Of a stretch of DNA of 43,849 nt, positions 7,338-43,041 are shown piece by piece (position 1 is the stretch's first letter; each line of letters starts with the position of its first letter). The notes beneath the pieces were generated by a model. That model did not search any database and was not told where the DNA came from. It saw only the letters and a list, made by a program, of their open reading frames with translations. The translations under genes and the position numbers were made by a program. Location of the stretch: IMG/VR virus record IMGVR_UViG_3300044799_000709, positions 1 to 43,849 of that record. The stretch is one strand, 5' to 3'. The stretch comes from a virus.

Positions 7338-9006
7338 CAAACAACGCCTTTCCCTCCACCTTCTCCGGTCCTTCAGTCTCGGCAATTGTCGAATAAATTG
7401 CCGTATTTGTGCTGTCGAAATCAATCTCATCGACCGTTCTTCTCGTCCTGACAATCACCTTTAATATATCCTCATTATCCGCCGCCGGTGATTGCCAGTT
7501 CAACCTGGCAATGCCGTTGCTCTTGGTCATTGCAACAACAACAGGGGTATCATTATCCGGGTCCGGGTCAGAGTCATCGTCTGTAAAATAAATCAGCCAG
7601 TCTGTAGCCTCATAATATTCAGCATCAACTTCATAAAAATAACGGGCCTCGACAATTGCCGTCCCTGCCGCCGCCGGTATTATTGTTATATCCAGCGGTG
7701 CTGCAGGCACCGGTTGAACCTCATTGCCCTCGGCATCAATCTCTACCTGCCAGCTTTCGATATTTTGTGAGCAAAGATTGAACTTATTGCGGTATCGCAG
7801 AACAAATTTATAGGTATGACTTACAGCCAGCGCCGCCGATTCGTGTGGCAGTGTTGTAAAGGTCTCCCATGGGCTTGCAGACAGGTCAGGCTCGGCATCC
7901 ACGCCCCGATACAGCTCGTAGCCGGTGATTGTGTCATCGGCAACCCTGTATAAGCCGGAGGCCTCACCTGTATAGTCTATTGTATCCAGAGTCCAGCTCC
8001 ACGATAGGCTATTTTCAAGCGTGGCTGCCGCTGTCTGCCCAACCGGCACTACAAGCCATATCCAACAGCCCATTTTTGCATTTGAGGCCATTGAGCCGAT
8101 ATTAAGACCATTTGCCGCTATTATACCGGTCGTCCATGATAAGCCCGAAACGGCTTCAATATCGTTTTCGTCATCAGCTATCGAGAACAGGCCGTTGCCG
8201 TCCGGGCTTTCGCTTGCTATTTTTACGCCGGGTATGGGATATATCTTATCTGTCGCCGTACCGGCGGCGGACGAGGTGCCCAATAATGCCCTGCCCGCCG
8301 CTGGGACGGTTATGACTACTGAATTTCGATTCGAATAATAAACTATTTCTCGAAGGCTTCCGGCCGCCGTCTCTATCCTGCAAAAGCCGGTTAGGGGCCA
8401 ATCTGCCAGAGAGCCGGCCGTCTCGATTGTCCCCGCCCCGGATGCACCAAGCTGGTCAATATCACTTACCCGTTGGGTCCCGAGTGTCTTAATCCAGACC
8501 TTGAGATTTGTAATTGATAGAGAGGCGTGGACATTCTTTAACGCTATACAGCGCAACTTGTTCTCTCCTGCCTGCTGCTCGGCCCCCGATATATTCGACA
8601 TACCGAATACGTTATTATAGATAGCCACGATATTTATCGTTAGCGAGCCTTTCAGGTCCTCGATAGTTTTTCTTTTAACAACTGCGAAATAAGCCGGCTC
8701 GGTTCCATCCTCGAGCATTTTTGTCTCATTATTTGCTATTGTTACTGCCGCCCCTGGTATGCCAGACGGCGCTGTGAACCGCAGGTTATTTTCATCGACG
8801 GCCTCGATTGAGCCGATGCCTTCCGGTCCTGCCAGCCTCAATATCTCGACGCCGATAAGATTACCACTAACATAAAATCCTTTTTTGTCGGCATATTTAT
8901 TAGATGTATAGCCGCCCAAAGATTCATCATCTGTTATTTCCGCCGGGAAAGCCGATTCGTTTGTCAGTAATATTGCAAGGCTGTCAGCCTTAGTCTTTTC
9001 GTCCAC
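7330..9006 (-). CDS. Large tail protein with Ig/fibronectin-like regions
   Basis: 558 residues, Ala/Thr/Asp-rich with long beta-type stretches. Segments such as SHTYKFVLRYRNKFN and TAIVEARYFYEVDAEYYEATDWLIYF resemble fibronectin-III or Ig-like modules, so it probably forms part of the distal tail. It starts with GTG at 9006. Its stop codon is inside a GTCACG heptamer array. Function beyond tail appendage is not evident. Confidence 0.6.
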   Translation of the reverse strand: MDEKTKADSLAILLTNESAFPAEITDDESLGGYTSNKYADKKGFYVSGNLIGVEILRLAGPEGIGSIEAVDENNLRFTAPSGIPGAAVTIANNETKMLEDGTEPAYFAVVKRKTIEDLKGSLTINIVAIYNNVFGMSNISGAEQQAGENKLRCIALKNVHASLSITNLKVWIKTLGTQRVSDIDQLGASGAGTIETAGSLADWPLTGFCRIETAAGSLREIVYYSNRNSVVITVPAAGRALLGTSSAAGTATDKIYPIPGVKIASESPDGNGLFSIADDENDIEAVSGLSWTTGIIAANGLNIGSMASNAKMGCWIWLVVPVGQTAAATLENSLSWSWTLDTIDYTGEASGLYRVADDTITGYELYRGVDAEPDLSASPWETFTTLPHESAALAVSHTYKFVLRYRNKFNLCSQNIESWQVEIDAEGNEVQPVPAAPLDITIIPAAAGTAIVEARYFYEVDAEYYEATDWLIYFTDDDSDPDPDNDTPVVVAMTKSNGIARLNWQSPAADNEDILKVIVRTRRTVDEIDFDSTNTAIYSTIAETEGPEKVEGKALFAT

Positions 9007-9021
9007 TTTTTATTTGTCCCT

Positions 9022-9060
9022 TACGAGTATCGAACTTCTGGTATCGAGCATCAATCCTCT
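9022..9060. repeat. Heptamer array, ATCGAGC type
   Basis: Degenerate units (GAGTATC, GAACTTC, TGGTATC, GAGCATC) fill the gap between the genes beginning at 9006 and ending at 9051. Confidence 0.6.
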
Positions 9061-9569
9061 TCGATTGTTATCGTTTGATTTTCCGAATCATAATCGTAAC
9101 TAACCGCCGGCACATCCGGGTGTCGAACGCAGAGGACGGCAAATTCCTTCGCCGCACCTTCGTTTCCGTTTGTCCCGACCGGTATTATCCTGAACTGGTG
9201 GCTGATGCCGTCCTCCAAAAATCTGGATTCGAGAGACATATAGCCGCCGTTATCCCTTATTTGTGCCCTTGTCACCCAGGCATCTGTTATATACTCATCG
9301 ACCTTATAATAGTCCGTATCTTCGGATGAGAACCAGAACAGCCTGGCCTTGCCTGGAAATACCTGCATTGGTATTTCGTTTATATCATCGAGTATTTCGA
9401 CTACATAACTTTCATCGAGGTTTACGCCGATTGAGATCTCCTTCTGTAACGAGGTCGCTATTAGGCGCCCATCCAAATAGATATAGAAAGTGGCGTTCTC
9501 GATAGTGCTCGAGTATTTGATTAGTGTCGAGTATTGTCCCGTAACGATTATTTTTTCTATTGTAACCAT
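9051..9569 (-). CDS. Putative tail protein with a fibronectin-like domain
   Basis: 172 residues from the ATG at 9569; the frame continues upstream to 9626, but that extension only translates heptamer repeats (Arg/Asn/Glu-rich), so I reject it. The body has beta-strand patterns (ATFYIYLDGRLIATS, ISHQFRIIPVGTNGNEG) like a small fibronectin-III or Ig module. The start is preceded by ACGAGATT, the end of a heptamer array, which may also serve as a weak ribosome-binding site. Similar in flavour to the next gene (7330-9006); probably part of the same tail appendage. Confidence 0.6.
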   Translation of the reverse strand: MVTIEKIIVTGQYSTLIKYSSTIENATFYIYLDGRLIATSLQKEISIGVNLDESYVVEILDDINEIPMQVFPGKARLFWFSSEDTDYYKVDEYITDAWVTRAQIRDNGGYMSLESRFLEDGISHQFRIIPVGTNGNEGAAKEFAVLCVRHPDVPAVSYDYDSENQTITIEED

Positions 9570-9657
9570 AATCTCGTTTCTCGATTCTCGATACTCGTTT
9601 CTCGATTTCCGTTTTCCACGAGCCACTGGTCACGAGCCACGGGTCACGGGTCAAAGC
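9570..9657. repeat. Two-part heptamer array at a gene junction
   Basis: Read on the minus strand, GTGACCC/GTGGCTC units lie next to the stop of the upstream gene (TGA at 9651-9653), followed by ATCGAGA/ACGAGTA units that end in ACGAGATT-ATG at the next start. This is a clear example of the stop-side/start-side arrangement. Confidence 0.75.
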
Positions 9658-10025
9658 GTCGGTTTCAGTATCCAGACCGCGTTTATAAGGTAGTTCAGGT
9701 TAGCCGGGCTCGATACGGCCATCGCCTGCACTCCTAAGACCCGGACATCGATTACCTTTACAGAATATGTTATCCGACCTGTATCATCGCAGACGGTTAC
9801 GAACCATCCCTTCAGCGATGCGTAGTCATCTGCTGCCGACTGGGCCGTCGAAAGGTTGGCGACTGCCTCAGTCGTATATTTCGTGATATCCTCGGCCTTC
9901 AATGCATCAATCCTGGTCGCCACCGAATCGACGCCGTCTCTATCTATAATCTCCACAGCCGCCGCTAAGCTTGGCACCTGCGGCCCTTCCATCTTCACAA
10001 AATTTACAGCGCCTATATATGACAT
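9651..10025 (-). CDS. Small tail-region protein, unknown function
   Basis: 124 residues, with a helical Ala-rich centre (TKYTTEAVANLSTAQSAADDYASLKGW) followed by beta-type sequence (GRITYSVKVIDVRVLGVQ). No family recognised. It lies between the small gene after the tape measure and the 9051 gene. Its stop codon TGA is inside a GTCACGG heptamer. No Shine-Dalgarno motif precedes the ATG. Confidence 0.6.
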   Translation of the reverse strand: MSYIGAVNFVKMEGPQVPSLAAAVEIIDRDGVDSVATRIDALKAEDITKYTTEAVANLSTAQSAADDYASLKGWFVTVCDDTGRITYSVKVIDVRVLGVQAMAVSSPANLNYLINAVWILKPTL

Positions 10026-10026
10026 A

Positions 10027-10088
10027 TATTAATCAATAATCATTTATCATTAATCATTTACGAGTATCGAGCATCGAGCATCGAGTCA
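10027..10088. repeat. Mixed heptamer array, AATCATT then ATCGAGC types
   Basis: AATCATT/TATCATT units pass directly into CGAGTAT/CGAGCAT units. Two heptamer families are joined in one 60-base gap. Confidence 0.75.
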
Positions 10089-10319
10089 TACTTTCTTTAT
10101 TGCATTCATACTTGTTATTATTCTTATCTTGCTTTCAACAAATTCTATCAGGCATGAGTTCATTGTCGCTCTTTTTATAAGTCTGCATTTCTTACCCTTA
10201 AACTGCTTTCTGTATCTGCCGACCGCGTTTTCTTTACCCCGTGAGATAAAGCCTTTGCCGTCTATCTCACGGGGTGAATTACCCCATCTATAAACATATA
10301 TCTGTTCATCTTTTTCCAT
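10086..10319 (-). CDS. Small phage protein carrying an in-frame palindromic-element insertion
   Basis: 77 residues, clearly homologous to the product of 33761-34003: both have QIYxYRWGN, AVGR, QFKGxKCRLxK, NSCxxxF and NAI in the same order. In this copy 17 residues (SPREIDGKGFISRGKEN) replace three (NKD) between YRWGN and AVGR, a net gain of 14 codons. The extra DNA is palindromic element copy 1 (10233-10278) read in its only open frame on this strand. The frame remains open, so the insertion is tolerated. The family is a small phage protein of unknown function. Confidence 0.7.
   Translation of the reverse strand: MEKDEQIYVYRWGNSPREIDGKGFISRGKENAVGRYRKQFKGKKCRLIKRATMNSCLIEFVESKIRIITSMNAIKKV
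10233..10278. repeat. Palindromic element copy 1, inserted inside a gene
   Basis: Arms TTTACCCCGTGAGATA and TATCTCACGGGGTGAA flank a short loop. It lies wholly within the coding sequence of 10086-10319, where it adds about 14 residues relative to the paralogue at 33761-34003. Other copies: 20886, 29836, 32322, 39785, 42996. Confidence 0.92.
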
Positions 10320-10464
10320 TTTTTACGAGTAACGAGTATCAAGCATCGACTTCTGTTCTTTTTTTCCTATTTTTTTACGAGTATCAAGTATCGAGCATCG
10401 ACTTCTGTTCTTTTTTTCCTATTTTTTTACGAGTATCAAGTATCGAGCATCGAGCATCGATTCA
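10320..10464. repeat. Heptamer array duplicated as ~50-bp tandem units
   Basis: Units ACGAGTA/TCAAGTA/TCGAGCA are embedded in a larger tandem repeat that includes CTTCTGTTCTTTTTTTCC followed by a T run. The larger unit occurs twice in full and then partially, showing two levels of repeat growth in one gap. Confidence 0.8.
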
Positions 10465-12084
10465 CTCACTCTCTCTCATCGCCGGCCTCGCCGTATTAAC
10501 CTTTATAAGTTCGTTATGTATATTAATAAGACTATTAAGAATTGCCTTAGACCAATCCAAATTGCCTGCAGGGACCGCTGTCGATTGAGAATTAAGATTC
10601 CTATTTTTTTCAATTCTATCTATAAGTTGTGAAATCATTGCACCGGCTTCAGGATTATAATAAGGATTTGGTTCTCCACCAGGTACAAGATATGGTTCCC
10701 CACCTGCACCTAATGGGGTTCCGCGTGGTGTTACATATCTTGGCCTTGTTTTAGATTCCAAATAAGTTTTATTTACTTTTCTTAATCTATTTATAGCTAC
10801 TCCAGAATAATCTTCTCCAATCCTTCCCTCAATCTGTATTGCCCCCATAATAAATTTTCTTTCGGTCTCTCCCATAAAACCTGGGGGTATTGTTTTTAAT
10901 ATTTCATCTGTCCATCCGTAAACGCGTGCTCTTTGTGCCGCTTCATTTTGACCTATTAATGCATTTTTTACTGCAATAGCATTTTCAGCATCGAGTTTTT
11001 GCTGTTCGAATAATGGTGTTTTTAAGGCCGCCGTTCTTTTAGCCGCATCTTGTTTTTGTGCATCTAATGAACGTTGTCTTCCGGCCGCAATCCTTCCTTC
11101 CTGCCAGATTGGTTGAACTGATCTTGTCTCTGTAATCCCGAATATATCCTCCCATTTTTCAGGCCGTTCGATTATCCATTCGCCGATATTCGCCCCTGCA
11201 GGCGCCTCCTGCAAAGCCTGCCACATCTTACCTTCATCGGTTTTGAGCCAGTCTCTTCTTTCCTTTCTACCCTCTTTTCCTTTAGGCCCTTCTTTAAGTG
11301 ATTTCCTTGCCCTTGCAACAAGATCTGCAACTTTCGATAAATTTCTTGTCCCTGCATCGGTTTGAAGACCGGCCCATGTAACAGCCAGTGTTGTTTCAGG
11401 ACTGATACCCTGTGCCTCGAGTTGCCTGGCCGCCCTCATTGCCTCTGATATATCACCTGCTTTTTGGGCAAATTCCTCTCTGAATGCAACTGTAATATCG
11501 GCAATATCATCAATTTCCTTTGTCTCCGGAAAAAGTTCCTGTATCTTTGCAAAATTCTGAATCCATTCAGGCCTTACCGCTGGTAAAGCTACCTTACCGG
11601 CCAACATCGCCGCAGTTTCCGCCTGTTCAATGGTTGTCTTTTCATCTCGAGCAGCCCTGTAAGCAGCCATTAAACTTGCTGCCTCTTCTTGACCTATATA
11701 TGGCATTTTCCCGCTTATCCTTTTTGCGGCTGCCTGAGCCGGTATTATTTGACTTGGTGCAAATTGTCTTCCTAATATATCCAGAAATGTTGACTGATAT
11801 TCCTTCGATGCTGCAAGTGCCTCTTTTTCTTTTCTTATAATTCCATCCCATTCATTTCCTAATAATGCGACCGCTTTTTGGGCAAGACCTATTCCGCTTG
11901 TAGCCACCCCCAAACCTGAGGCAAAGGTTAAGACATCCTTGCCGAAATCCGCGAATTTACTCGTTCGATTGACCTCGCGCATCTTGGCGACCATTCCCTC
12001 GAGTTTGGTTATAGTCTGTGCCATCCCCTGGATAGCCAGGTCACCATCGAACGTCGCCTTTATTCCGAGGTCTTCTTTTGCCAT
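10462..12084 (-). CDS. Tail tape measure protein
   Basis: 540 residues, largely alpha-helical, Ala/Glu/Lys-rich with a short hydrophobic patch (VLTFASGLGVATSGIGLAQKAVALLG, about residues 50-75), as expected of a tape measure that sets tail length and is ejected with DNA. It follows the chaperone-like and tail-completion-like genes and precedes the hub. For a tape measure it is short; by the usual length relation (about 0.15 nm per residue) the tail would be around 80 nm. It begins at an ATG with GGGA upstream. Confidence 0.75.
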   Translation of the reverse strand: MAKEDLGIKATFDGDLAIQGMAQTITKLEGMVAKMREVNRTSKFADFGKDVLTFASGLGVATSGIGLAQKAVALLGNEWDGIIRKEKEALAASKEYQSTFLDILGRQFAPSQIIPAQAAAKRISGKMPYIGQEEAASLMAAYRAARDEKTTIEQAETAAMLAGKVALPAVRPEWIQNFAKIQELFPETKEIDDIADITVAFREEFAQKAGDISEAMRAARQLEAQGISPETTLAVTWAGLQTDAGTRNLSKVADLVARARKSLKEGPKGKEGRKERRDWLKTDEGKMWQALQEAPAGANIGEWIIERPEKWEDIFGITETRSVQPIWQEGRIAAGRQRSLDAQKQDAAKRTAALKTPLFEQQKLDAENAIAVKNALIGQNEAAQRARVYGWTDEILKTIPPGFMGETERKFIMGAIQIEGRIGEDYSGVAINRLRKVNKTYLESKTRPRYVTPRGTPLGAGGEPYLVPGGEPNPYYNPEAGAMISQLIDRIEKNRNLNSQSTAVPAGNLDWSKAILNSLINIHNELIKVNTARPAMRESE

Positions 12085-12099
12085 CAGTTAAATCCCAAT

Positions 12100-12142
12100 A
12101 ACCAAGATACAATAATCAATAATCATTTGTCATTTATCATTT
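12100..12142. repeat. Heptamer array, AATCATT type
   Basis: Units AATCAAT, AATCATT, TGTCATT, TATCATT lie between the tape measure start and the next upstream gene, next to a palindrome at 12143. Confidence 0.6.
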
Positions 12143-12180
12143 CCCCACAGTTTTGCTACCGCAAAACTGTGGTTGTCCCC
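12143..12180. repeat. Palindrome supplying the stop codon of gene 12156
   Basis: CCACAGTTTTGC and GCAAAACTGTGG are exact inverted arms with outer CCCC on both sides. Read on the minus strand it gives the final residues VLR and the TAG stop of 12156-12662. It resembles the family seen at 2948, 15968, 22826 and 30343. Confidence 0.6.
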
Positions 12181-12662
12181 GCCGTCTGATTCATTCTCGC
12201 TACAACCTCTTTTCGAGCCAATTGTGCCATTGCCCTGATTTCATCCTTCGCCAGTGTCGTCAGTTCCTTGGCCATATTCATTGTTCCTTTGCGTTTTCTC
12301 GTATCCCGCCTTTGGATATAGATATATCTTATTTCCGGTCCTGCTATGAATTTACCCGTCGCTATCCCCGTTTTTTTGCCCTTCTCTTTTGTCACCTTAT
12401 AAAAGCCGTGCCTGAGCAGCCTTTCCCTTGTCCTGCCTGACCAGACTAATGCGGGCAGGCCTTTCTTTCTTTTTCTCTTTTGGTATGCCGGTGTTCGCTC
12501 CTGGTATTGATATTTAACGGCCGCTCCCTGTTTGAAGTGCCCGGGCGCCGTATTATAGAACCAGTTATAGAGGACCTTTTCGAGCACATCTGTCGCTATA
12601 GCCGGCAGTTGCTTCATGCACTCCTGCATCTTATTATTGCTTGTCAATTGCAAATGAAACAT
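12156..12662 (-). CDS. Tail-completion / virion morphogenesis-like protein
   Basis: 168 residues from the ATG at 12662. The frame extends to 12695 but that part only translates heptamers (AENRESRNEN) and is rejected. The product is basic and helical, with YQERTPAYQKRKRKKGLPALVWSGRTRERLL, resembling the arginine-rich, LxxSGxxRxxL-type motif of small tail-completion proteins (HK97 gp10 / phage morphogenesis type). The start is preceded by a heptamer array ending ACGAGAAT-ATG. It lies between the chaperone-like gene and the tape measure, not upstream of the tube gene as usual. Confidence 0.6.
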   Translation of the reverse strand: MFHLQLTSNNKMQECMKQLPAIATDVLEKVLYNWFYNTAPGHFKQGAAVKYQYQERTPAYQKRKRKKGLPALVWSGRTRERLLRHGFYKVTKEKGKKTGIATGKFIAGPEIRYIYIQRRDTRKRKGTMNMAKELTTLAKDEIRAMAQLARKEVVARMNQTAGTTTVLR

Positions 12663-12752
12663 ATTCTCGTTTCTCGATTCTCGATTCTCGGCCATCCCGA
12701 GTCACGGGTCCCGATTTACCAGTCACGGGCCACGACCTACGACCCACATCTC
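12663..12752. repeat. Two-part heptamer array at a gene junction
   Basis: On the minus strand, GTGACCC/GTGGCCC-like units on the stop side give way to ATCGAGA/ACGAGAA units that end at the ATG at 12662. The TGA of the -1 frame of the upstream gene (12723-12725) is inside the first part. Confidence 0.75.
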
Positions 12753-12775
12753 TCCTAACGTCGGAGTATAACTGG

Positions 12776-13516
12776 TTATCCTGCCGCTGAGCCAGAGTTC
12801 GAAGACTGTTCTTCTGCTATAGCAGTTTTTTTTTGACTAACAGATTTATTGATAAACTCCTCGACTGCCTCGAAATCGATAATCGCCTTACAGACCTCCC
12901 TGATATTATTCGTATTCAGGAGTTTCATTATATTTATCTCATCAGTCGAGATGTGGTAATTGATATTCAGGGCCTCGACCGCCATTTCCCAGGCCTGCTC
13001 CATAGTTGTCGCTGGCTTGCCTTCGGCAACGCCTATTATTATCAAAAAATCTGTCCAGTATTTTTCCGCTTTTTTTGAAAACTCTATAAACCGCGGTATC
13101 AACTCGGCCTTTAATACCCCATCTTTTCCCATAATCAGGGCCTGCGGCAGAGCCGTCCCGGCCGGGAACGCCCGCGCCAACGGTATCTGCCATTTTTTGC
13201 CATCGCCCAAAAAGACCTGATGGCCATCAATCTGCTCTTTACGGGCGAGTTCAATTGGCCCGGGCATTGCATTTACATACCAGCCTATCCAATATTTACC
13301 GTTCAGGGCCTTTTGCCAGTCCTGCTCTTCTGGTTTATAAAGAAGGTGTTTCGAATCGGTCCCTTGGCCTGCTATTAAAAGACCCTTGCCGCCTCCCGGC
13401 AGCATATTTGTCTGCCGTGTAGTGGGATTATCGCCTAAGACCTTATTGAGTTCGGTATCGGCAAGAACCTGTTTATTTATTTCGTTTGTTGCTAAGCCAT
13501 ATATAAAACCGCCCAT
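12776..13516 (-). CDS. Tail assembly chaperone-like protein (possible gpG/GT analogue)
   Basis: 246 residues. It lies between the tube-like gene and the tape measure, where lambda-like phages encode tail assembly chaperones. The C-terminal half is helical and acidic (TTMEQAWEMAVEALNINYHISTDEINIMKLLNTNN). Near the end is a run of nine A's on the coding strand (12826-12834, codons Q-K-K), an efficient slippery type. A -1 shift there would bypass the stop at 12776 and read about 34 more codons to a TGA at 12723. No family was recognised beyond this positional analogy. Confidence 0.6.
   Translation of the reverse strand: MGGFIYGLATNEINKQVLADTELNKVLGDNPTTRQTNMLPGGGKGLLIAGQGTDSKHLLYKPEEQDWQKALNGKYWIGWYVNAMPGPIELARKEQIDGHQVFLGDGKKWQIPLARAFPAGTALPQALIMGKDGVLKAELIPRFIEFSKKAEKYWTDFLIIIGVAEGKPATTMEQAWEMAVEALNINYHISTDEINIMKLLNTNNIREVCKAIIDFEAVEEFINKSVSQKKTAIAEEQSSNSGSAAG
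12826..12834 (-). other. Candidate -1 ribosomal frameshift site (A9 run)
   Basis: The coding strand reads CAAAAAAAAAC. The -1 frame after it is free of stops for about 34 codons (beginning NCYSRRTVFELWLSGR) and ends at 12723. Programmed -1 shifting near the 3' end of the chaperone gene is known in many tailed phages. Confidence 0.4.
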
Positions 13517-13519
13517 ATT

Positions 13520-13568
13520 TCGTTCCTCGTTTCTCGTGACCCGGGACCCGGATCACTGGTCACTATTC
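13520..13568. repeat. Two-part heptamer array at a gene junction
   Basis: GTGACCC/GGGACCC-type units lie beside the TGA of the gene ending at 13553, followed by ACGAGAA/ACGAGGA units leading to the ATG at 13516. GAGG within the last units may act as ribosome-binding site. Confidence 0.7.
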
Positions 13569-13783
13569 ACGGATTTCCGTCCCATCGCAATTCTTTGCAC
13601 CTCGTTAGCCGCCTCTCTTTTGGCAGCCAGCGCAGCCTGGCATACAGCCGTATGCGCCAGTTTTTCCTCATCTGTCGCATTTACAGGCAGCACCTTTTTA
13701 ACTAAGAGGTGGTATTCATGTTGTGTCTTCTGCAGTTTTTCCCGTGCAATCTGCAGTTCCGACTTTTCTGTCTTGGCCGTCAT
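13553..13783 (-). CDS. Small helical protein between tube and chaperone-like genes
   Basis: 76 residues, predicted almost entirely helical (KTEKSELQIAREKLQKTQHEYHLLVKKVLP; DEEKLAHTAVCQAALAAKREAANEVQRIAMG). A good ribosome-binding site (AAGGAG) precedes the ATG. Its stop codon falls in a heptamer array. Position suggests a tail assembly role; no family recognised. Confidence 0.6.
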   Translation of the reverse strand: MTAKTEKSELQIAREKLQKTQHEYHLLVKKVLPVNATDEEKLAHTAVCQAALAAKREAANEVQRIAMGRKSVNSDQ

Positions 13784-13809
13784 ATCTATCTCCTTATTAA
13801 TATTTTTTT

Positions 13810-13843
13810 CCCCGAATCACGAATCACAGGTCACTGTTCACGA
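13810..13843. repeat. Heptamer array, GAATCAC/GGTCACT type
   Basis: Units AATCACG, AATCACA, GGTCACT, GTTCACG are in tandem immediately beyond the stop codon of the tube-like gene. Confidence 0.6.
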
Positions 13844-14740
13844 TTATGTTATTCCCGTTATTGCCAGTATCGCATTCAGACCATCATAGACCGGTGTTAT
13901 AACCGCCTGTCCTGCAATTGCCTGTCCATCACTGCCCGGCACCGAATCGAAGTGGATAATACCCGAATCGATTGAGAATGTAATCGGTGCCGAGCCTCGG
14001 ACGCCGCCGGCTGCCTGGTCCAAAAGCTGGATAGTTGAATCTGTCTCTCCCTGTGCCTGGCCGGGCAGGCCCCACGATGCGAATTTTGCCATATCGAGTG
14101 TGGTTATCGTGATATTCGGGCTTCTGCGAGTCACACCGCATGCGGTGACATATATATGGCCGTCTAAGATATTCGTCCAGACCTCCATACCGAAATCAAT
14201 GTCGATATTTGATACCATCTCGAGTGCGACGCCGTTGATTGTTACCGGTCCTAAGGTATAAACTTCAGTTATCGCATCCTGTGCAGCCTCTAACGATTGA
14301 CCGGCCGTCATTGCAAACGGTGATGTGACTCCATCTGCGCTTCGCGGTATTGCCCTATAAGACAGGACCGCAGGCTGGCCCTGTGCCGCCCTGATTCGAA
14401 CAGGTACAATCAGACCCAATGCAGCTACGCATTTTATATGGCTCAATGCCCCGCCCCGCAGACCGTCACCGAGCATTTTTTGAAAATAGAATGTATCGTT
14501 CGAGATGGCCGCCCCTGATATGCCGCCGAGACCTGCCAGCGCTGTCTTTATTGCGAGCGTGTCGAAGTTTATCTCATTGAGGATTTGCCCTATCCCTACA
14601 AACGATGGGTCAACCGCTCCTGAGCCGCGGCCGATCATCAGTTGAGCGCCGGGCACGACATTCAGCGACTGGATTCCTTTGAGCAGTGTCGAACTGTGTT
14701 TGAACGCGCTTATCGTGTAGTTATCTGTTATTAACGTCAT
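13844..14740 (-). CDS. Major tail tube-like protein
   Basis: 298 residues, beta-rich with hydrophobic alternation (PVTINGVALEMVSNIDIDFGMEVW; HIYVTACGVTRRSPNITITTLD). It lies after the terminator-like gene and before the chaperone and tape measure genes, the usual place of the tail tube (lambda V). AAGGAG precedes the ATG. Length fits a tube protein. Assignment rests on position and composition; a sheath is less likely because no second contractile-type gene is present. Confidence 0.6.
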   Translation of the reverse strand: MTLITDNYTISAFKHSSTLLKGIQSLNVVPGAQLMIGRGSGAVDPSFVGIGQILNEINFDTLAIKTALAGLGGISGAAISNDTFYFQKMLGDGLRGGALSHIKCVAALGLIVPVRIRAAQGQPAVLSYRAIPRSADGVTSPFAMTAGQSLEAAQDAITEVYTLGPVTINGVALEMVSNIDIDFGMEVWTNILDGHIYVTACGVTRRSPNITITTLDMAKFASWGLPGQAQGETDSTIQLLDQAAGGVRGSAPITFSIDSGIIHFDSVPGSDGQAIAGQAVITPVYDGLNAILAITGIT

Positions 14741-14770
14741 ATTTTACTCCTTAAATTCTTAAATTTATTT

Positions 14771-14808
14771 TACGAGTATCGAGTATCCAGTATCCAGTAT
14801 CGAGTTTT
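14771..14808. repeat. Heptamer array, ATCGAGT/ATCCAGT type
   Basis: Units GAGTATC, GAGTATC, CAGTATC, CAGTATC, GAGTTTT run between the ribosome-binding site of the tube-like gene and the stop of the preceding gene. Confidence 0.75.
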
Positions 14809-15408
14809 TCATTTCATTCCCCATCCCACCAACAGCCTTATTACATAAACATATTTTTCCGAACTTGTCGGGTCATATTTCACCGGCCCTTCGATTACAG
14901 ATATTGAATTGATTACTAAGTAGCCGGGCCTGCCCGCCAGTGCCGATATATCATTTATTACGCCCTCGTAGAAATTCTCGAAGTCTGCCTCAGCGTTCGC
15001 TTCCTGTCCTGTTTCCCGGTATGTTTCGGGTATTTCTCTTTCGAGTCTCAACTCGAGGTCGCCGCCTTTTATAAAATCCCGGACCCCGCTGCCGCTGACG
15101 GCTACAGCCGAATCATCGTTATTCTGAGTATTTAAAATCAGTGCAAATGGTCTTAGAAATGCCCCCGTCTCTTCTGCCGCGACTGCATATTCTGTTTTAT
15201 GTATTCTTGTTTTTGCGTAAGCGATTCTTATCTCGGTTTCGCCCCCCGACAGTCCGAGCGCCGTTTGGAAGGTCTCGGACTCCGCCACTAATTGCTTGAG
15301 GGCATCTTTAACTATCCCGCGGGGAGTCGAGACAGTCACCTCATCGGGATATTCCGGTACTATTATCCCGCCTCCGCTTGCCCCGAATCCGAGTCCTAAC
15401 TGAAACAT
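14809..15408 (-). CDS. Tail terminator-like protein
   Basis: 199 residues. It sits directly upstream of the tube-like gene, the place of lambda U. A helix (RGIVKDALKQLVAESETFQTALG) precedes beta-rich sequence (ETEIRIAYAKTRIHKTEYAV; LELRLEREIPETYRE) and a C-terminal strand (YVYVIRLLVGW), consistent with small tail terminators. The start is preceded by ATGAGATT at the end of a heptamer array. Identification is positional. Confidence 0.55.
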   Translation of the reverse strand: MFQLGLGFGASGGGIIVPEYPDEVTVSTPRGIVKDALKQLVAESETFQTALGLSGGETEIRIAYAKTRIHKTEYAVAAEETGAFLRPFALILNTQNNDDSAVAVSGSGVRDFIKGGDLELRLEREIPETYRETGQEANAEADFENFYEGVINDISALAGRPGYLVINSISVIEGPVKYDPTSSEKYVYVIRLLVGWGMK

Positions 15409-15520
15409 AATCTCATTTCTCGATTCTCGATACTTGTTTCTCGTTTAATCGCAAATCCCGGGCCACCCTTCTTCGCTGCGCTACGCAGGGCAGGCGAGCC
15501 ACGGGTCCCGGGTCACGATT
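15409..15520. repeat. Two-part heptamer array with an inserted hairpin
   Basis: GGGTCAC/GGGTCCC units at the stop side (TGA at 15513-15515) and TTCTCGA/TACTTGT units at the start side are separated by CGCTGCGCTACGCAG and nearby GC-rich sequence. The same order is seen at 9570, 12663 and 13520. Confidence 0.7.
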
Positions 15521-15956
15521 CCGGCTCCACTATTTGTCCTATTACTGTCGTTACACTTTTAACGGCCACGCCATCGACATCGTTAAGGTCCTTGGTCATA
15601 AGGACAGCGCCTGTATCCTTATTTTTCACAACCATTTTCCACTGGTTCGGGTCTGTTTTATCTATAATACAGTCGCCCTCGAGGATATTCTTTATTATTG
15701 TCACATCATCGGCTTGACTTATTACCCTGAAAATTCCAAAGCCCTTTTTAACGCCATTCTCAAAAAACACACCCACATAATCGCCTGCATCTGCAAAATC
15801 ATAATCAAGGAAATAAAGGCCGCTTTCAATCTCTATAAGTGTCTGCAAACCACTCTTAATCAGAGTCGGGCTCCAGATATAGGCAGTAACCGTTTTGCCG
15901 GCTGCAAAATCAGTCGCCTTATAAAAAATCCTGTTTGTACCTATAGAGTATGACAT
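15513..15956 (-). CDS. Beta-rich protein related to the next gene; appendage module
   Basis: 147 residues. Its N-terminal domain (FYKATDFAAGKTVTAYIW...GLYFLDYDFADAGDYVGVFFENGVKKGFGIF) resembles the domain in 16077-16616 (YQAVGLATGKTITMSVYD...GRYYKAFTPNAEGIWTVIIIN), so the two are probable paralogues. This repeated module, about 90 residues, looks like a structural (Ig-like) unit. It lies between the spike proteins and the tail terminator. Its TGA stop is in a heptamer array. Confidence 0.6.
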   Translation of the reverse strand: MSYSIGTNRIFYKATDFAAGKTVTAYIWSPTLIKSGLQTLIEIESGLYFLDYDFADAGDYVGVFFENGVKKGFGIFRVISQADDVTIIKNILEGDCIIDKTDPNQWKMVVKNKDTGAVLMTKDLNDVDGVAVKSVTTVIGQIVEPES

Positions 15957-16616: not shown

Positions 16617-16628
16617 AAATATCCTTTC

Positions 16629-16652
16629 TACACGGGCTGGAAGCCCGTGTTA
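16629..16652. repeat. Intergenic hairpin TACACGGGCTGGAAGCCCGTGTTA
   Basis: Near-perfect arms CACGGGCT/AGCCCGTG. It lies between the stop of 16653-17006 and the ribosome-binding site of 16077-16616. This hairpin is one I associate with planctomycete intergenic regions. Confidence 0.65.
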
Positions 16653-17006
16653 CTAACCAACCATAGCCGGTTGAATATTAATATCGATTGCCGAGCCATC
16701 CCAGGCGATTAGTTCCCTGTCTAATGGAATATCGCCATCGCCGGGATTGCTTCCAATCTTTATAAAAAACTGCTGATAATAAATTCCTGCTGCAATTGCC
16801 GGCATATCCTCCGAATACCAGCATCCGGCATCACCGGCCCCGCCGCCCGCCCCCGAAACATCATAATCGGTGTATGACCTCCCACCGGTCCCCCACGTCT
16901 CGAATGTCAAATTACTGACTCTCAAAACCTGACCGGCGAGGTTACGGATTGTCGGATATAAAATATCGGTATTCGGATAATGAGATTTTCTGATTTTATC
17001 AGCCAT
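16653..17006 (-). CDS. Small appendage-module protein
   Basis: 117 residues, Gly/Tyr-rich, with a phage-head-fibre-like character (NLTFETWGTGGRSYTDYD; GIYYQQFFIKIG). It ends QPAMVG, very like the SPAMVG end of the neighbouring gene, and both stops sit against the same hairpin type. The ATG overlaps the stop of 17006-18175, with AAAGGT upstream, so it is translationally coupled to it. Confidence 0.6.
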   Translation of the reverse strand: MADKIRKSHYPNTDILYPTIRNLAGQVLRVSNLTFETWGTGGRSYTDYDVSGAGGGAGDAGCWYSEDMPAIAAGIYYQQFFIKIGSNPGDGDIPLDRELIAWDGSAIDINIQPAMVG

Positions 17007-20622: not shown

Positions 20623-20874
20623 TTATATCTTCATCCCTTTTTCAATCTCCATCTTTTTGATTAGGAAATCCCTTCTCCCTCTCATAAAATCCAAGAAGCC
20701 CTGGCCGATGATATAAATCGCCGTAACCGCAGAGACGGCCATAATGGCATTGTAGCTGTCCTTGATTTGCATCATCGAGAGGATATACGCTATTATTGCG
20801 TTCGACTTCTTCTTGTCGAGAAGCTGGCCATACCACTTCGTCCCGCCGTTTGATTCCTTGATTTCGTCTGCCAT
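20623..20874 (-). CDS. Small membrane protein, holin-like
   Basis: 83 residues with two hydrophobic stretches (NAIIAYILSMMQ and YNAIMAVSAVTAIYIIGQGFLDF) and a charged, basic C-terminus (RGRRDFLIKKMEIEKGMKI), the layout of a small phage holin. AAAGGAG precedes the ATG, directly beside palindromic element copy 2. It follows the other holin-like gene. No endolysin was recognised nearby, so the lysis role is an inference. Confidence 0.5.
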   Translation of the reverse strand: MADEIKESNGGTKWYGQLLDKKKSNAIIAYILSMMQIKDSYNAIMAVSAVTAIYIIGQGFLDFMRGRRDFLIKKMEIEKGMKI

Positions 20875-20885: not shown

Positions 20886-20923
20886 TTTACCCCGTGAGAT
20901 ATGAAATTATCTCATGGGGTGAA
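20886..20923. repeat. Palindromic element copy 2
   Basis: TTTACCCCGTGAGATA with TATCTCATGGGGTGAA and a shorter loop than the other copies. Read on the minus strand in another frame it supplies the last residues FTP and the TGA stop of 20912-21307. Confidence 0.88.
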
Positions 20924-21307
20924 TTTGTCATTTCTAACTTTATTATTTTCTGTTTTTTGCATTTCTCCAATTGCCTTTTCAAATTTAGATTGTGAGTAAA
21001 GATTGAGCATAAAAAATATGAAGGCAACGATAAGAGCCGCTATTACAGGCGCTGTTATTTTTTCAAAAAATCCCTTTACCTCACTTTTACATTCCTTAAT
21101 TCGCTTTACATCTTTTTTCAGGTCCCCGACATCTGTCTTTATTCCCTGGTTGCCGTTGCCGTATAAATCATTTTTAACATCATTGATAGGACAATTCTTT
21201 TGATGCTCCTCTATAACAGTGGGCATGCATTCCTTGACAGCTAATTTCACCGCCTGGCCTATAAAATAAAGCAGGTCAACCTCGACCATTTTTTTATTTC
21301 CGCTCAT
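20912..21307 (-). CDS. Membrane-anchored coiled-coil protein, XhlA/holin-accessory-like
   Basis: 131 residues from ATG 21307. A longer frame to 21427 only translates hairpin repeats and is rejected. A helical region (NDLYGNGNQGIKTDVGDLKKDVKRIKECKSEVKG) is followed by one transmembrane segment (ITAPVIAALIVAFIFFMLNLY, about residues 85-105), the design of haemolysin XhlA-type holin partners. The C-terminal residues FTP and stop come from palindromic element copy 2. Confidence 0.55.
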   Translation of the reverse strand: MSGNKKMVEVDLLYFIGQAVKLAVKECMPTVIEEHQKNCPINDVKNDLYGNGNQGIKTDVGDLKKDVKRIKECKSEVKGFFEKITAPVIAALIVAFIFFMLNLYSQSKFEKAIGEMQKTENNKVRNDKFTP

Positions 21308-21312
21308 ATTCG

Positions 21313-21366
21313 TAACACGGCCATCTTGACCGTGTCCCTTTCTACACGGGCTTCCAGCCCGTGTCA
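21313..21366. repeat. Paired hairpins CACGGTC/GACCGTG-like and CACGGGCTTCCAGCCCGTG
   Basis: Two hairpins stand side by side separated by CCCTTTC. The second one, read on the minus strand, contributes the TGA stop of 21364-21729 (codons GTG TGA). Pairs of the same design are at 23689, 31915 and 35715. Confidence 0.7.
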
Positions 21367-21729
21367 CACCGGCAGTTTCTTCTTCCCGAATTCCGACCTC
21401 TTTGAAACAGGTGTATCTTTTCTGCACTGCAGGATTGCCGAGTCATATTCGACAGCCGGGCCATTAACGACTATCCAGTCTGTCTCATCGATTGTGAATT
21501 TATCGTTTAACTGCGGGTCAGGGATAGTTAATAATGATATCTCAATCCTGCGATGCTCCAGCTTTATCTCATTGCCGTTATCCTGCTCAAATTCGGTATC
21601 TATCGGGCCTGCCAATATTTTGACTTCTGATGCCTCACCATCGACAGGTGTATAAATAGCATCGATGCCCTCAATATCGAGCAACTGCCCGAATGCAGAC
21701 CTCATAACCTCATCGAATCCGACGCCCAT
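21364..21729 (-). CDS. Head-tail joining protein
   Basis: 121 residues, directly after the major capsid gene. The first half (FDEVMRSAFGQLLDIEGIDAIYTPVDGEASEVKILAGP) and the strand pattern RIEISLLTIPDP...KFTIDETDWIVVN match by eye the small beta-barrel head-tail joining family (lambda FII-like). AAAGGAACG precedes the ATG. Joins the filled head to the tail in virion assembly. Confidence 0.7.
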   Translation of the reverse strand: MGVGFDEVMRSAFGQLLDIEGIDAIYTPVDGEASEVKILAGPIDTEFEQDNGNEIKLEHRRIEISLLTIPDPQLNDKFTIDETDWIVVNGPAVEYDSAILQCRKDTPVSKRSEFGKKKLPV

Positions 21730-21737
21730 ATTTCGTT

Positions 21738-21839
21738 CCTTTATCGCAAGTCGTATATCGTATGTAGTATGTCGTTTTTTCGATTGCCGATTTACGCATT
21801 ACGCATTACGACATACGACTGCCGCATTACGCATTTTTA
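21738..21839. repeat. Heptamer array, TCGTATG and CGCATTA types
   Basis: TCGTATA/TCGTATG units and CGCATTA/CGACATA units fill the gap next to the capsid stop codon. This is one of the longest arrays. Confidence 0.78.
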
Positions 21840-22790
21840 CTACGCATCAACCTTCAATAGATGTCCGAAATACGGGTCGAATAATTTTTCCTGGCAGAAC
21901 TGGTTGCAGCGAATAATATCGCTCTTTGTCTGCTCTTCGCGGTAGCTTTCGACGGGTGTCAGTTCCCCGCTTATCGGGTCCCACAGAAGTATCCTGCCGA
22001 GCCCCGGGTTTGCCTTCGTGGCGCCAACTTGTCTCTTGAAAATCAGGGCATAATCATCGCTGAATATGTCGCCGGATGCAAAAACCTGTCCTTCCTTGGC
22101 TGAATCATAGACGGATTTGCCGACAAACAAATTTCTAAGATTCAAAATCGCGGCTAAGTTGGCCATCAGCAAGTCATAAGTCAGGACTGTAACTCCCGGG
22201 AATCTCGCCAATATTCCCGTATTTGCCAGGATATTATTCAGTGTCACCGGCCCAATCAGCATCGAATCGGCGACGGCACCCGTATTCCTGCGAACCTTTT
22301 CGACCGCGGCATTGACATGACCCATAACACCGCTCGCTATATTATCCCAAGGTGCAGCGGATACATCCGTATAAAGGTCGGGGCCTGAAAAAGTCGTTGC
22401 ATTGAACAGGGCCGTTGCCGCCCTTATCTCCTGCTCGACCTTTATTTTTCTAACTATGGATTGTGTTGCCTCCATATCGGCGTCGAAGTCATTGATGTAG
22501 TTTTCCCGGTCAGTATCTGTAACCTGCTCTTCGAGTCCGTAATCCTGGCAACTATAATCGAGGTCTGCCGCAATAAGGCTAACCCTGTTGAATACGGCTC
22601 CGTTGGCATGCTTCGCATCGGCACGTTTTATGTTTGTCCTTTTGATAACCGAAATTGTGGCCGCCTTTTTCTGGACCGTCATCACGGGCAGCACCTGTTC
22701 GGCAACGAATCCCTCGGCTGCATTATCGAACTCGTGGAAAGCAACCCCGAGGTCCTCGCGAGGCACGGCATAAGTACTTTGCTGTATCAT
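21840..22790 (-). CDS. Major capsid protein (HK97 fold, lambda gpE-like)
   Basis: 316 residues. The sequence has features of the E-type family: an N-terminal arm, AEQVLPVMTVQKKAATISVIKR, a helix-rich spine (MEATQSIVRKIKVEQEIRAATALF), MLIGPVTLNNILANTGILARF and the C-terminal strand LGRILLWDPISGELTPVESYREE. No scaffold domain is fused, fitting a separate scaffold nested in the protease gene. AAGGAG is at proper spacing. A terminator-like hairpin lies upstream, so the level of capsid mRNA may be set separately. Confidence 0.88.
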   Translation of the reverse strand: MIQQSTYAVPREDLGVAFHEFDNAAEGFVAEQVLPVMTVQKKAATISVIKRTNIKRADAKHANGAVFNRVSLIAADLDYSCQDYGLEEQVTDTDRENYINDFDADMEATQSIVRKIKVEQEIRAATALFNATTFSGPDLYTDVSAAPWDNIASGVMGHVNAAVEKVRRNTGAVADSMLIGPVTLNNILANTGILARFPGVTVLTYDLLMANLAAILNLRNLFVGKSVYDSAKEGQVFASGDIFSDDYALIFKRQVGATKANPGLGRILLWDPISGELTPVESYREEQTKSDIIRCNQFCQEKLFDPYFGHLLKVDA

Positions 22791-22825
22791 TTTCTATCTC
22801 CTTAAAAGATTTTTAACTGGTTTAC

Positions 22826-22858
22826 CCCCGACGCTTTGTGGCTTAGCCACAGTGGGGA
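22826..22858. repeat. Palindrome CCCC...TGTGGCTTAGCCACA...GGGG
   Basis: Outer CCCCGACGCTT and AGTGGGG match the copy at 15968, whereas the inner stem is completely different yet still self-complementary. Confidence 0.6.
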
Positions 22859-22905
22859 CAAAAAAAAACACGGCCGGCAGGGGTGCGGCCCCGCACGGCC
22901 GTGTT
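22858..22905 (-). terminator. Intrinsic terminator between decoration and capsid genes
   Basis: On the minus strand AACACGGCC and GGCCGTGTT form the stem, followed by an uninterrupted run of T's. It is downstream of 22941-23645 and upstream of the capsid gene. A similar hairpin with similar flanks is at 26814. Confidence 0.65.
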
Positions 22906-22940
22906 CTTAAAACAAACTTATTCACTTTTCAGATTTTCCC

Positions 22941-23645
22941 TTATGCAATCGGTATGCACAGAATAAATACCTCACCGGTCCCGGTATTTGCCGGGACAAG
23001 TGAGAGCGAGCCGCCGAGTGCGATGGTGTTGTAGGCATCATCGATTGTTCCCGCATGCACAACTACCTTATCGACGGCGCAAATCATCGCATCGGTGATA
23101 TCATTTGTGCCATCCGTGAGTTTTATCGTGCCATTCGCATGAGCCGCCGAACAAATCAGCCAGGCCCCGATAATCAATATCTTCCGCGGGCAATCGGCGG
23201 TAAAGACCGCGACAGTCGAGCCTGCAACCTGCTCGCGAATCAATAGTGGCACCCCGAGAATTGCATCCGCCAGTGTTCCTATTACAGCGGCAAGGTCTGT
23301 TCCGGTTATCACCTCCACAATATCATGCGCTGCAGTTGCCGCCTCTAAGGCAATACCCTGAACCTGGCCGAGAACCACATCATCTATTTCACCATCGGCA
23401 GCCCCGTAAACTTGCGCCCCTGCGCTAAATGCCCCTGCCACCCTCATTTTTCGGGTGCCGGATGCAGTTCTCAAACGGACCGTCACCTGCTCGCCGTTCG
23501 CAACCGCTATCTCCGTTGTTCCTATCCAGTCCTCAGCAACACCGGAATAAATTACCGTTCCTGCGCTTAATTTTACCCGGCAAAAGGCATTCAACGCCTC
23601 GCCGGCAACGAACGCCTTTGAATTTCCTTCTGAATACTGACTCAT
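22941..23645 (-). CDS. Capsid decoration / DUF2190-like protein
   Basis: 234 residues. The N-terminal 110 residues (SEGNSKAFVAGEALNAFCRVKLSAGTV...GVAEDWIGTTEIAVANGEQVTVRLR) match the small beta-barrel family DUF2190, usually found between protease and capsid genes and acting as a head decoration or stabilising protein. The C-terminal half is a second, beta-rich domain of unknown role. AAGGAG precedes the ATG. Confidence 0.7.
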   Translation of the reverse strand: MSQYSEGNSKAFVAGEALNAFCRVKLSAGTVIYSGVAEDWIGTTEIAVANGEQVTVRLRTASGTRKMRVAGAFSAGAQVYGAADGEIDDVVLGQVQGIALEAATAAHDIVEVITGTDLAAVIGTLADAILGVPLLIREQVAGSTVAVFTADCPRKILIIGAWLICSAAHANGTIKLTDGTNDITDAMICAVDKVVVHAGTIDDAYNTIALGGSLSLVPANTGTGEVFILCIPIA

Positions 23646-23665
23646 TTTTTATCTCCTTAATTAAT

Positions 23666-23688
23666 ATTCGTATATCGTATTTCGTAAG
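23666..23688. repeat. Short heptamer array, TCGTATA/TCGTATT type
   Basis: Three degenerate units next to a hairpin pair. Confidence 0.5.
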
Positions 23689-23737
23689 TAACACGGCCAT
23701 CCTGGCCGTGACTACACGGGCTGGAAGCCCGTGTTAC
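23689..23737. repeat. Paired hairpins at the protease stop codon
   Basis: AACACGGCCATCCTGGCCGTG and TACACGGGCTGGAAGCCCGTG stand in tandem. The TAA stop of the protease gene (23734-23736) is inside the second hairpin. Confidence 0.7.
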
Positions 23738-24165
23738 TGTTTTCCTTTTTTCCCCCCTTTTGTCTTGCATTTTTCGATATGCTGGTTATAGACCTCCGGG
23801 AGTTCGCGGGCGATCTGTTTCATCGCCTCCGACATCTTGATTTTCTTTTCCTCGGCACGGGCCTTTGCCAGTTCCATAAAATCGGCATCACCGTCGGCAG
23901 CCTCATTGTGTTCGACAGGCGGCGCCCCGCCGGCCGGCTTTTTGGCTCCGTTTTTCAACCTGCCCTTCAAAACCTCGCAGTATTCGGCCTTTGCCTGCTC
24001 GATTGTATTTCCTTTTTCTAATTGCTCGAGCACGAAGGCAGGGTCATCGCCGAATGCCTCTTTGAATTCACTGATATTCACTTTTTCAATCTTTGCATCC
24101 GCAACTACTGCGGTCTGACCGGTATTATCTGCCTCCGATTTTTGCTCATTTTTTTCGTCCAACAT
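23734..24165 (-). CDS. Nested in-frame scaffold protein (Nu3-like internal start)
   Basis: Within the protease gene, codon MLDEKNEQ at 24165 is preceded by AAAGGAGATACT, a strong ribosome-binding site at correct spacing. The product (143 residues, same frame) is just the acidic-helical scaffold domain. This is the arrangement of lambda C/Nu3, where the scaffold is made from an internal start and removed by the protease. Confidence 0.72.
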   Translation of the reverse strand: MLDEKNEQKSEADNTGQTAVVADAKIEKVNISEFKEAFGDDPAFVLEQLEKGNTIEQAKAEYCEVLKGRLKNGAKKPAGGAPPVEHNEAADGDADFMELAKARAEEKKIKMSEAMKQIARELPEVYNQHIEKCKTKGGKKGKQ

Positions 24166-26518: not shown

Positions 26519-26781
26519 GTGAGCATTTTGCCTTTGACAAATGGATTCCTGTTTACCGATGAATTTCGTACATACTCCTCGAGTCTCTTTTTTTCCTGCT
26601 CGAGCAGATTGTAATTGACGCTCCTGCCCAGCCCATCATCGGCCCTGACAGGCCTGTTTACGAGAATGAAACGAACGGCCTCGAGGGCGAGAATTGCCTT
26701 TGCCGAATTGCCGTCCCATGAGAGATTATCGTTATATTGGTCAAGTGCATTTTTAAGAGTTGAGCTCGAAGTAAGCGACAT
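26515..26781 (-). CDS. Small head-tail connector, gpW-like by position
   Basis: 88 residues from ATG 26781 (AAGGA upstream; a longer frame to 26805 exists). It lies between large terminase and portal, just as lambda W does. The C-terminal helix (NYNLLEQEKKRLEEYVRNS) and the preceding GRSVNY resemble the gpW pattern of a short beta hairpin followed by a helix. The ATGA overlap couples it to the portal. Confidence 0.6.
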   Translation of the reverse strand: MSLTSSSTLKNALDQYNDNLSWDGNSAKAILALEAVRFILVNRPVRADDGLGRSVNYNLLEQEKKRLEEYVRNSSVNRNPFVKGKMLT

Positions 26782-26805
26782 TTTTTTCCTTACTTCGCCG
26801 GCCAA

Positions 26806-26843
26806 ATAAAAATGGCCGTGCGATTATGCGGCCCCGCACGGCC
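26806..26843 (-). terminator. Terminator-like hairpin upstream of the gpW-like gene
   Basis: On the minus strand GGCCGTGCG pairs with CGCACGGCC, followed by ATTTTTATTT. The hairpin and the sequence beside it (TTCTTAAAA...ACTTTTCAG on the plus strand) are shared with the hairpin at 22867, so both descend from one repeat. Confidence 0.5.
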
Positions 26844-26978
26844 TGATTCTTAAAAATTAAAATCTTTACTTTTCAGCCTCTATAATGCTGAAAAAATATT
26901 ATTGCAACACAAAATAAACTTTTTTTCGAATATTTTTACAAACTTGTAAAATATTTTTACAAACTTGTAAAAAACAGG

Positions 26979-27263: not shown

Positions 27264-27276
27264 AAAATCCCTTTCT

Positions 27277-29324: not shown

Positions 29325-29364
29325 AACTCGTTACTCGTTACTCGTGACTCGATACTCGTCAATC
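29325..29364. repeat. Heptamer array, ACTCGTT type, at the terminase start
   Basis: Units ACTCGTT, ACTCGTT, ACTCGTG, ACTCGAT, ACTCGTC abut the ATG of the large terminase gene. Confidence 0.8.
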
Positions 29365-29385
29365 ACTTTTCATTCCTCAATTTTT

Positions 29386-29823: not shown

Positions 29824-29826
29824 ATT

Positions 29827-30405
29827 TCACCTTTCTTTACCCCGTGAGATAAAGTCGTTGCCGTCTATTTCACGGGGTAGATTTTCACCAGAAAAAATCC
29901 TTATACAATATTCGATTTCTGTCTTTATCATTTCAAGCCTCTCGGCCTCGTTCTTTCCTTCCAATCGCGGCGCCAGCTTTCTCGGCAGCCCTAATAACTG
30001 TCTTTTGACAGCCGATATTCTCTTCAATCTATCCACCTCAATCTCCTCGAACGGCAGCAACCGGCCCTGTTTTATCTTCAGCTCCAGTTCTAACAGCTTT
30101 GCCTTTATCTCCTTTACATCAGCCTCTGCCTTTTTGTGGCGGTTGGTATCCTCATCGTAATCGCGGCCGCCCGTCTTTTTATAATGGTCTAAAATCGCCT
30201 TAAAATAACCGCCGCCCTTGACAATCGGCATCCCCTGGTCATGCCAGCGCCGAATAGTCCTTTCATCGACCCCGGCGTATGCAGCCGCCTCTTTTTGAGT
30301 GGCTATTATCTGCGACCTGTCGAATGCCTTCTTCTTTTTCATGCCCCCGCATTTTCTTGTCGAAGAGGAGTGTGGGGACTTTATTTTTTTTTTATTTTTT
30401 ACCAT
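29827..30405 (-). CDS. terS: Small terminase subunit (Nu1-like)
   Basis: 192 residues in the long frame. A MerR-like winged helix (IATQKEAAAYAGVDERTIRRWHDQGMPIVKGGGYF) matches the Nu1 DNA-binding domain, followed by a helix-rich oligomerisation region. The MKKKKAFDRS start at 30342 is the more natural beginning, since the residues before it come from a palindrome at 30343. The C-terminus PREIDGNDFISRGKER is encoded by palindromic element copy 3 in the same frame as copy 1 in gene 10086. So repeats appear to have altered both ends. Confidence 0.8.
   Translation of the reverse strand: MVKNKKKIKSPHSSSTRKCGGMKKKKAFDRSQIIATQKEAAAYAGVDERTIRRWHDQGMPIVKGGGYFKAILDHYKKTGGRDYDEDTNRHKKAEADVKEIKAKLLELELKIKQGRLLPFEEIEVDRLKRISAVKRQLLGLPRKLAPRLEGKNEAERLEMIKTEIEYCIRIFSGENLPREIDGNDFISRGKER
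29836..29881. repeat. Palindromic element copy 3, encoding the terS C-terminus
   Basis: TTTACCCCGTGAGATAAAG with TATTTCACGGGGTAGA. It contributes about 15 codons to terS; the TGA stop follows five codons outside the arm. Confidence 0.9.
30343..30378. repeat. CCCC...GGGG palindrome at the terS 5' end
   Basis: CCCCCGCATTTTCTT and AGGAGTGTGGGG, weaker pairing than other members. It separates two possible terS starts. Confidence 0.45.
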
Positions 30406-32321: not shown

Positions 32322-32400
32322 TTTACCCCGTGAGATATTTACCACGTGGGATATGCCTTTTTTTATCCCATCGTGGTTGCCGTCTATATCACGGAGCGAA
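32322..32400. repeat. Palindromic element copy 4, element nested within an element
   Basis: Outer arms TTTACCCCGTGAGATAT and ATATCACGGAGCGAA are separated by an inner pair ACCACGTGGGATATGCC and TTTATCCCATCGTGGTTG. The inner pair aligns with the standard arms in diverged form, so a copy appears to have inserted into another. Confidence 0.75.
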
Positions 32401-39784: not shown

Positions 39785-39830
39785 TTTACCCGGTGAGATA
39801 AAGCCGTTACCGTCTATCTCACGGGGTGAA
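39785..39830. repeat. Palindromic element copy 5
   Basis: TTTACCCGGTGAGATAAAG with CTATCTCACGGGGTGAA. In its third frame it supplies HPVR and the TAG stop of gene 39814-40014. Confidence 0.9.
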
Positions 39831-42995: not shown

Positions 42996-43041
42996 TTTAC
43001 CCCGTGAGATAGACTACAAAGGCTTTATCTCACGGGGTAAA
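42996..43041. repeat. Palindromic element copy 6, abutting the tRNA 3' end
   Basis: TTTACCCCGTGAGATA with TTTATCTCACGGGGTAAA; loop orientation opposite to copies 1, 3 and 5. Its arm ends exactly where the tRNA ends, so it may act as trailer hairpin. Confidence 0.9.

Follow-up and report, generated by a model that had tools for sequence, protein, structure and literature searches.

What is a 46-bp palindrome doing inside a small phage gene, and how did that gene stay readable? The question is raised by the window, by which we mean the whole stretch of DNA that was analysed, a virus record from IMG/VR, 43,849 bases long, that encodes portal, terminase, head-protease and integrase proteins. The palindrome (TTTACCCCGTGAGATA AAGCCTTTGCCGTC TATCTCACGGGGTGAA) is copy 1 of six element copies in the window and lies within the ORF of a small protein, P0001, whose paralogue P0002 in the same genome is uninterrupted (Table 1). 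A sequence-only reading had claimed that the two products are homologous and that the first has about 14 extra residues exactly where the palindrome lies. Both claims were confirmed: the pair gave a local score of 173.5 against 28.6 +/- 5.9 for shuffled sequences (tblastn E 2e-17), and the alignment extends over nearly the whole shared length with a single 14-residue gap, at SPREIDGKGFISRG, corresponding to 10233-10278. The element had been described as a 46-nt insert, which needs correction, since it adds 42 nt. It had also been described as read in the only frame open on its strand; the in-frame reading stands, but the opposite strand, too, is open across the SPREI frame, where it translates as LPREIKPLPSISRGE. 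The palindrome is well beyond what chance would give: the pattern with perfect 12-bp arms had two matches in the window, at 10237-10274 and 43000-43037, and none in 100 dinucleotide shuffles, and a single arm with up to three mismatches was found 12 times against 0.28 expected. Folded as single-stranded DNA, copy 1 reached -13.7/-14.7 kcal/mol (z -6.4/-6.7).

Table 1. Element copies in the window and the ORFs that they interrupt or extend, with the uninterrupted paralogue.
Feature	Coordinates	Strand	Remarks
Palindromic element copy 1 (46-bp subfamily)	10233..10278		46 bp; net insert 42 bp = 14 codons, within ORF
P0001, 77-aa small phage protein, predicted SH3/KOW-like barrel	10086..10319	-	interrupted in frame by copy 1
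P0002, uninterrupted paralogue, 80 aa	33761..34003	-	
46-bp subfamily copy	29836..29881		in frame at terminase small subunit C-terminus, adds NLPREIDGNDFISRG before KER*; end 12 nt upstream of next start codon
Terminase small subunit, element-extended	29827..30405	-	extension about 14 codons, in frame
46-bp subfamily copy	39785..39830		gives stop codon to ORF 39814-40014 (...KVHPVR*); ends 13 nt before start of ORF 39085-39771
46-bp subfamily copy, opposite orientation	42996..43041		flush against tRNA-Met 43042-43115(-)
Copy split by a second, nested palindrome (TTTACCACGTGGGATA...TATCCCATCGTGGT)	32322..32400		ends 13 nt before start of ORF 32033-32308
Short-spacer copy, 38 bp	20886..20923		gives stop codon to ORF 20912-21427 (...NDKFTP*); ends 11 nt before start of ORF 20623-20874

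The P0001 product is small and matched nothing in Pfam or PHROG, as might be expected if the ORF were spurious, or if copy 1 were an intergenic REP without coding meaning. We consider this very improbable, given the conserved paralogue, the homologues in phages of other contigs that share the motifs EQ.Y.YRW and KG..CR, and a second in-frame case in a recognised gene, that of the terminase small subunit. Homologues of P0001 beyond the paralogue were found in a prophage-like contig (in a genome from the order of a Sedimentisphaerales MAG) and at five IMG/VR loci representing three distinct sequences, and every one of them is without the insert. Parsimony therefore favours insertion over loss, as the sequence-only reading had proposed in calling the pair an insertion that left the gene unbroken. 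A single-protein scan of IMG/VR with P0002 and the large terminase confirmed no related loci. Linker length does differ among the homologues, so one could suppose that the ancestor already had the 14 residues and that the paralogue and the other homologues lost them. They are, however, absent from all other homologues found, and the same 46 bp stands at unrelated loci of this phage and of a second phage, so that it cannot be an inherited part of the P0001 gene family; we give the ancestral origin hardly any credence. The exact ancestral junction in P0001 is unreadable because the paralogues have diverged.

The place of the insertion appears to have been a forgiving one. At this site no homologue has an unrelated loop of comparable size, though the site is a naturally length-variable linker, between YRWGN and KG, and it is this variability across the homologue family that marks it as tolerant. 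In the AlphaFold model of P0001, residues 15-34, which hold the inserted ones, are modelled as disordered, being the only long stretch with pLDDT below 50, while the remainder forms a small beta barrel with weak SH3/KOW-like matches in Foldseek (best E 0.016). Copy 1 would have fallen in a flexible loop of this small SH3-like protein and been tolerated there, the added peptide being presumably neutral.

Four of the six copies in the window belong to one 46-bp subfamily and occupy unrelated sites. The copy in the terminase small subunit repeats the situation in P0001, since homologues in three prophages end at the insertion point or within a few residues of it. The net 42 bp of the 46-bp subfamily amounts to 14 codons, and each strand has one phase free of stops, so that a gene stays readable in one of the three possible phases of insertion. 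The other phases would truncate, which may be why such copies are seen only at gene ends, where they supply the stop codon. In the split copy, the arm changes of the second palindrome are compensated.

The arrangement of the copies also invites a different explanation, namely that the palindrome serves the phage as a regulatory hairpin, acting in the 5'-UTR or in translation control and kept by selection, with the copy inside the gene as a by-product. In four of the six, a start codon follows 11-13 nt after the end of the copy, whose terminal TAAA begins TAAAGGAG-like ribosome binding sites; the folds are stable; and the density of about one copy per 7 kb in the phage is far above that of host-order genomes. 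Against this, the remaining copies lie inside a gene and against a tRNA, and a position just before genes would also be expected from a TTTA target, given that the TAAA in TAAAGGAGG reads TTTA on the other strand. We regard the regulatory explanation as unlikely, also in the light of the related phage and of the arm deviations described below.

Several other repeats were seen in the same window. A second palindrome family (GTAACACGG...) occurs as inverted pairs like REP dimers at 21312-21368, 23688-23738, 31914-31968 and 35714-35768 (also 16626-16654), and the predicted N-terminus of ORF 20912-21427 includes the translated pair at 21312 (VTRAGSPCRKGHGQDGRVTN). Many AT-rich intergenic micro-repeats, e.g. 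ACGAGTATCGAGCATCGAG and TTACGCATTACGCATTACGAC, are spread over 9004-15530 and 21737-35795. A tandem repeat with a 60-bp period (41578-42117, seven overlapping register copies) lies within ORF 41601-42362 or on its border, and a 20-bp tandem repeat (TCCTGCTTTCCCCGGGTCCT, 36955-37099) within ORF 36909-37598. The record also carries two tyrosine-recombinase (phage integrase) genes, at 181-1206 and 37615-38361.

The 46-bp type was also found outside the window. The exact two-arm pattern had no match in IMG/VR; looser patterns gave five contigs, of which two are the same phage and one (L185) looks like an ordinary hairpin. The related phage, IMGVR_UViG_3300031746_000114, was seen in two metagenomes, as L186 and L187, which agree without a difference over 2,491 bases. 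Its methyltransferase, terminase and portal proteins have homologues in the window, and its terminase is 37.5% identical to the one there. A copy of the 46-bp subfamily sits at the 3' end of its methyltransferase gene, a place without a copy in the window, and a second copy, of a different kind, is present in one of the two records. This presence at another gene junction speaks against the regulatory explanation. Among 159 genomes of the presumed host order, no member of the 46-bp subfamily was found within three mismatches, and since the same type is present elsewhere in the related phage, the subfamily has therefore moved within the phage lineage. The 46-bp query against named phages and plasmids returned nothing convincing.

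The sequence-only reading dealt with the element in this phage and needs a further correction: the element is not confined to it, and the family recurs across many bacterial phyla besides the related phage. Its layout is TTYACCCCGTGAGATA-spacer-TATCTCACGGGGTRAA or, with the ends, TTYA-CCCCGTGAGATA-variable spacer-TATCTCACGGGG-TRAA. A two-arm scan of 84,980 species genomes gave 41 loci, and loci with TTYA ends came from Planctomycetota, Omnitrophota, Elusimicrobiota, Bacteroidota, Chlorobiota, Verrucomicrobiota and Acidobacteriota, so that the family is present in at least seven bacterial phyla. The same scan returned many 12-bp-arm matches in CPR genomes, which were not counted as family because TTYA ends are absent and they may be chance hairpins. 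Two of these matches (L028, L043) stand in sequence resembling RNase P RNA genes, as judged by eye only. Of 18 genomes selected from the two-arm scan, 14 contain the 16-base arm TTYACCCCGTGAGATA, with 68 occurrences in all (reversed control 0), and it is found 75 times in 24 of the 161 genomes from the order of a Sedimentisphaerales MAG, four of which were already known from that scan (reversed control 1).

Element length ranges from 36 to 145 bp across the family. Spacers vary across it and are common within subfamilies, and therefore whole units multiply. In two 139-bp copies of a Bacteroidetes MAG (L087, L089), a second palindrome (arms CCCCGTTGGATA) is nested in the spacer, as in the window copy at 32322. 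A TTTA end tag is paired with a TTCA one in 28 copies, whereas symmetric copies number 4 and 4, and this asymmetry points to a fixed orientation. Deviations from the arm consensus affected one arm in 31 cases and both arms in matched fashion in 4, in a sample biased by the requirement for one exact arm. This resembles decay after insertion rather than conserved pairing, and would favour selfish DNA over a conserved hairpin.

Cellular genes have received the element as well, with independent in-frame insertions in HldD and in radical-SAM-like paralogues. In the HldD of a planctomycete MAG (L044), 45 residues take the place of 5 in the E. coli protein, and they stem from the element, read as SPREINLNRQSYKASVESSISRG, and an adjacent second repeat. 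The repeat-like peptide PVPSEACPEQSRRVEG beside the palindrome means that two different inserts are found in this one gene at nearly one place. Two neighbouring paralogous ORFs of an Elusimicrobia MAG have one in-frame copy each, at different sites, and for one of these copies the paralogue supplies the empty site: GGAATTCA/CCATACG compares with the filled GAAATTTA/CCCC...TAAA/CCCTACG or, with the element in brackets, GGGAATTCACCATACG with GGAAATTTA[CCCC...GATAAA]CCCTACG, a net gain of 48 for a 52-bp element. In this clearest empty site TTCA stands at the junction and there is no target duplication. A 68-bp copy near the end of an apparent gene in another genome (G042) gave a net gain of 64 against two relatives, which carry TTGA, so that the case is not by itself proof of TTYA. 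As 64 is not a multiple of three, the in-frame cases are those left after filtering, and staying in frame is not inherent in the insertion. One intergenic comparison departed from the rule, with a net gain of 68 for a 75-bp element, and spacer indels may lie behind it. The net gain is thus mostly the element length minus 4; the kept-TTYA junction is clear in one DNA-level pair, and the lengths are consistent with it in the others.

Taken together, copy 1 probably represents the insertion of a small non-autonomous mobile palindrome of REP/RPE-like kind, TTYA-adjacent, with a net gain of its length minus 4, and tolerated in a flexible loop. Points against this reading are the intergenic exception, the lack of a good copy near the sampled Y1_Tnp loci and the absence of the 46-bp subfamily from the 159 host-order genomes. 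The element would land beside a TTYA tetranucleotide, which would be kept as the target, and would leave no target-site duplication. The retained TTYA, the net gain, the lack of duplication and the asymmetric hairpin ends resemble IS200/IS605-type transposition and REP biology, and by this analogy we infer movement in trans by a single-strand (HUH/Y1-type) transposase. Y1_Tnp genes were present in 14 of 15 carrier genomes; no good element copy was found near Y1_Tnp at 30 sampled loci in carrier genomes, and it is for this reason that the moving enzyme is named by inference only. A MITE moved by a DDE transposase was rejected, as the readable empty sites have no direct duplication and the net gain is less than the element length; likewise, the spacing of exact arms gave no sign of an autonomous DDE-type element with such arms as its ends.

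How does the family relate to known systems? IS200/IS605 elements insert 3' of a tetra- or pentanucleotide, without target duplication and with recognition of single-stranded hairpins. The present element would likewise keep a tetranucleotide on one side and make no target duplication, and it has hairpin ends, but it has no transposase gene, and one hairpin is the whole element. GTAG REPs and REPINs, mobilised by RAYT (Y1 tyrosine transposases), are similar in their hairpin, conserved end tetranucleotide and asymmetric ends (PMC3733652, PMC3116915), and also in intergenic and intragenic placement and in termini able to provide stop codons. They differ in that the tag here is TTYA rather than GTAG, the spacer is very variable in length, and no RAYT was seen close to copies of the present family at the sampled Y1_Tnp loci. 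Both GTAG- and CGTC-tagged palindromes have been described, with insertions inside many genes and with repeat ends supplying stop codons, and RPE-4 and RPE-6 are the CGTC-tagged REPs of R. conorii (PMC3733652). Rickettsia palindromic elements (RPE), which the sequence-only reading had named as the precedent, are alike in being short palindromes in frame in unrelated genes, recognised via shorter homologues. An in-frame palindrome that homologues lack is what we observed in P0001, the terminase small subunit, HldD and the Elusimicrobia paralogues. The precedent is therefore apt as to behaviour and fails as to the tag, which is CGTC in RPE-4/6 (PMC3733652) and TTYA/TRAA in the window copies and most family members; in contrast to RPE, the present family sits in a temperate phage and many environmental bacterial lineages. 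It works like REP/RPE elements but bears neither the GTAG nor the CGTC tag. A search for the arm sequences in open-licence papers gave only unrelated matches, and a description elsewhere is possible.

Short palindromes that add codons without disrupting the gene are known mainly from Rickettsia and REP-rich bacteria. To these the present analysis adds a family with a different tag in unrelated phyla, together with temperate phages that carry members of it. It is tempting, though speculative, to see in TTYA a third cross-phylum superfamily of tagged palindromes beside GTAG and CGTC, one subfamily of which resides in phages, adds a net 42 bp that can be read on either strand, and is perhaps spread between genomes by phages. 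Carriage by temperate phages offers a possible route for such elements across lineages, and the clean before/after pairs allow tests of the chemistry of insertion and of the tolerance of proteins to random peptides.
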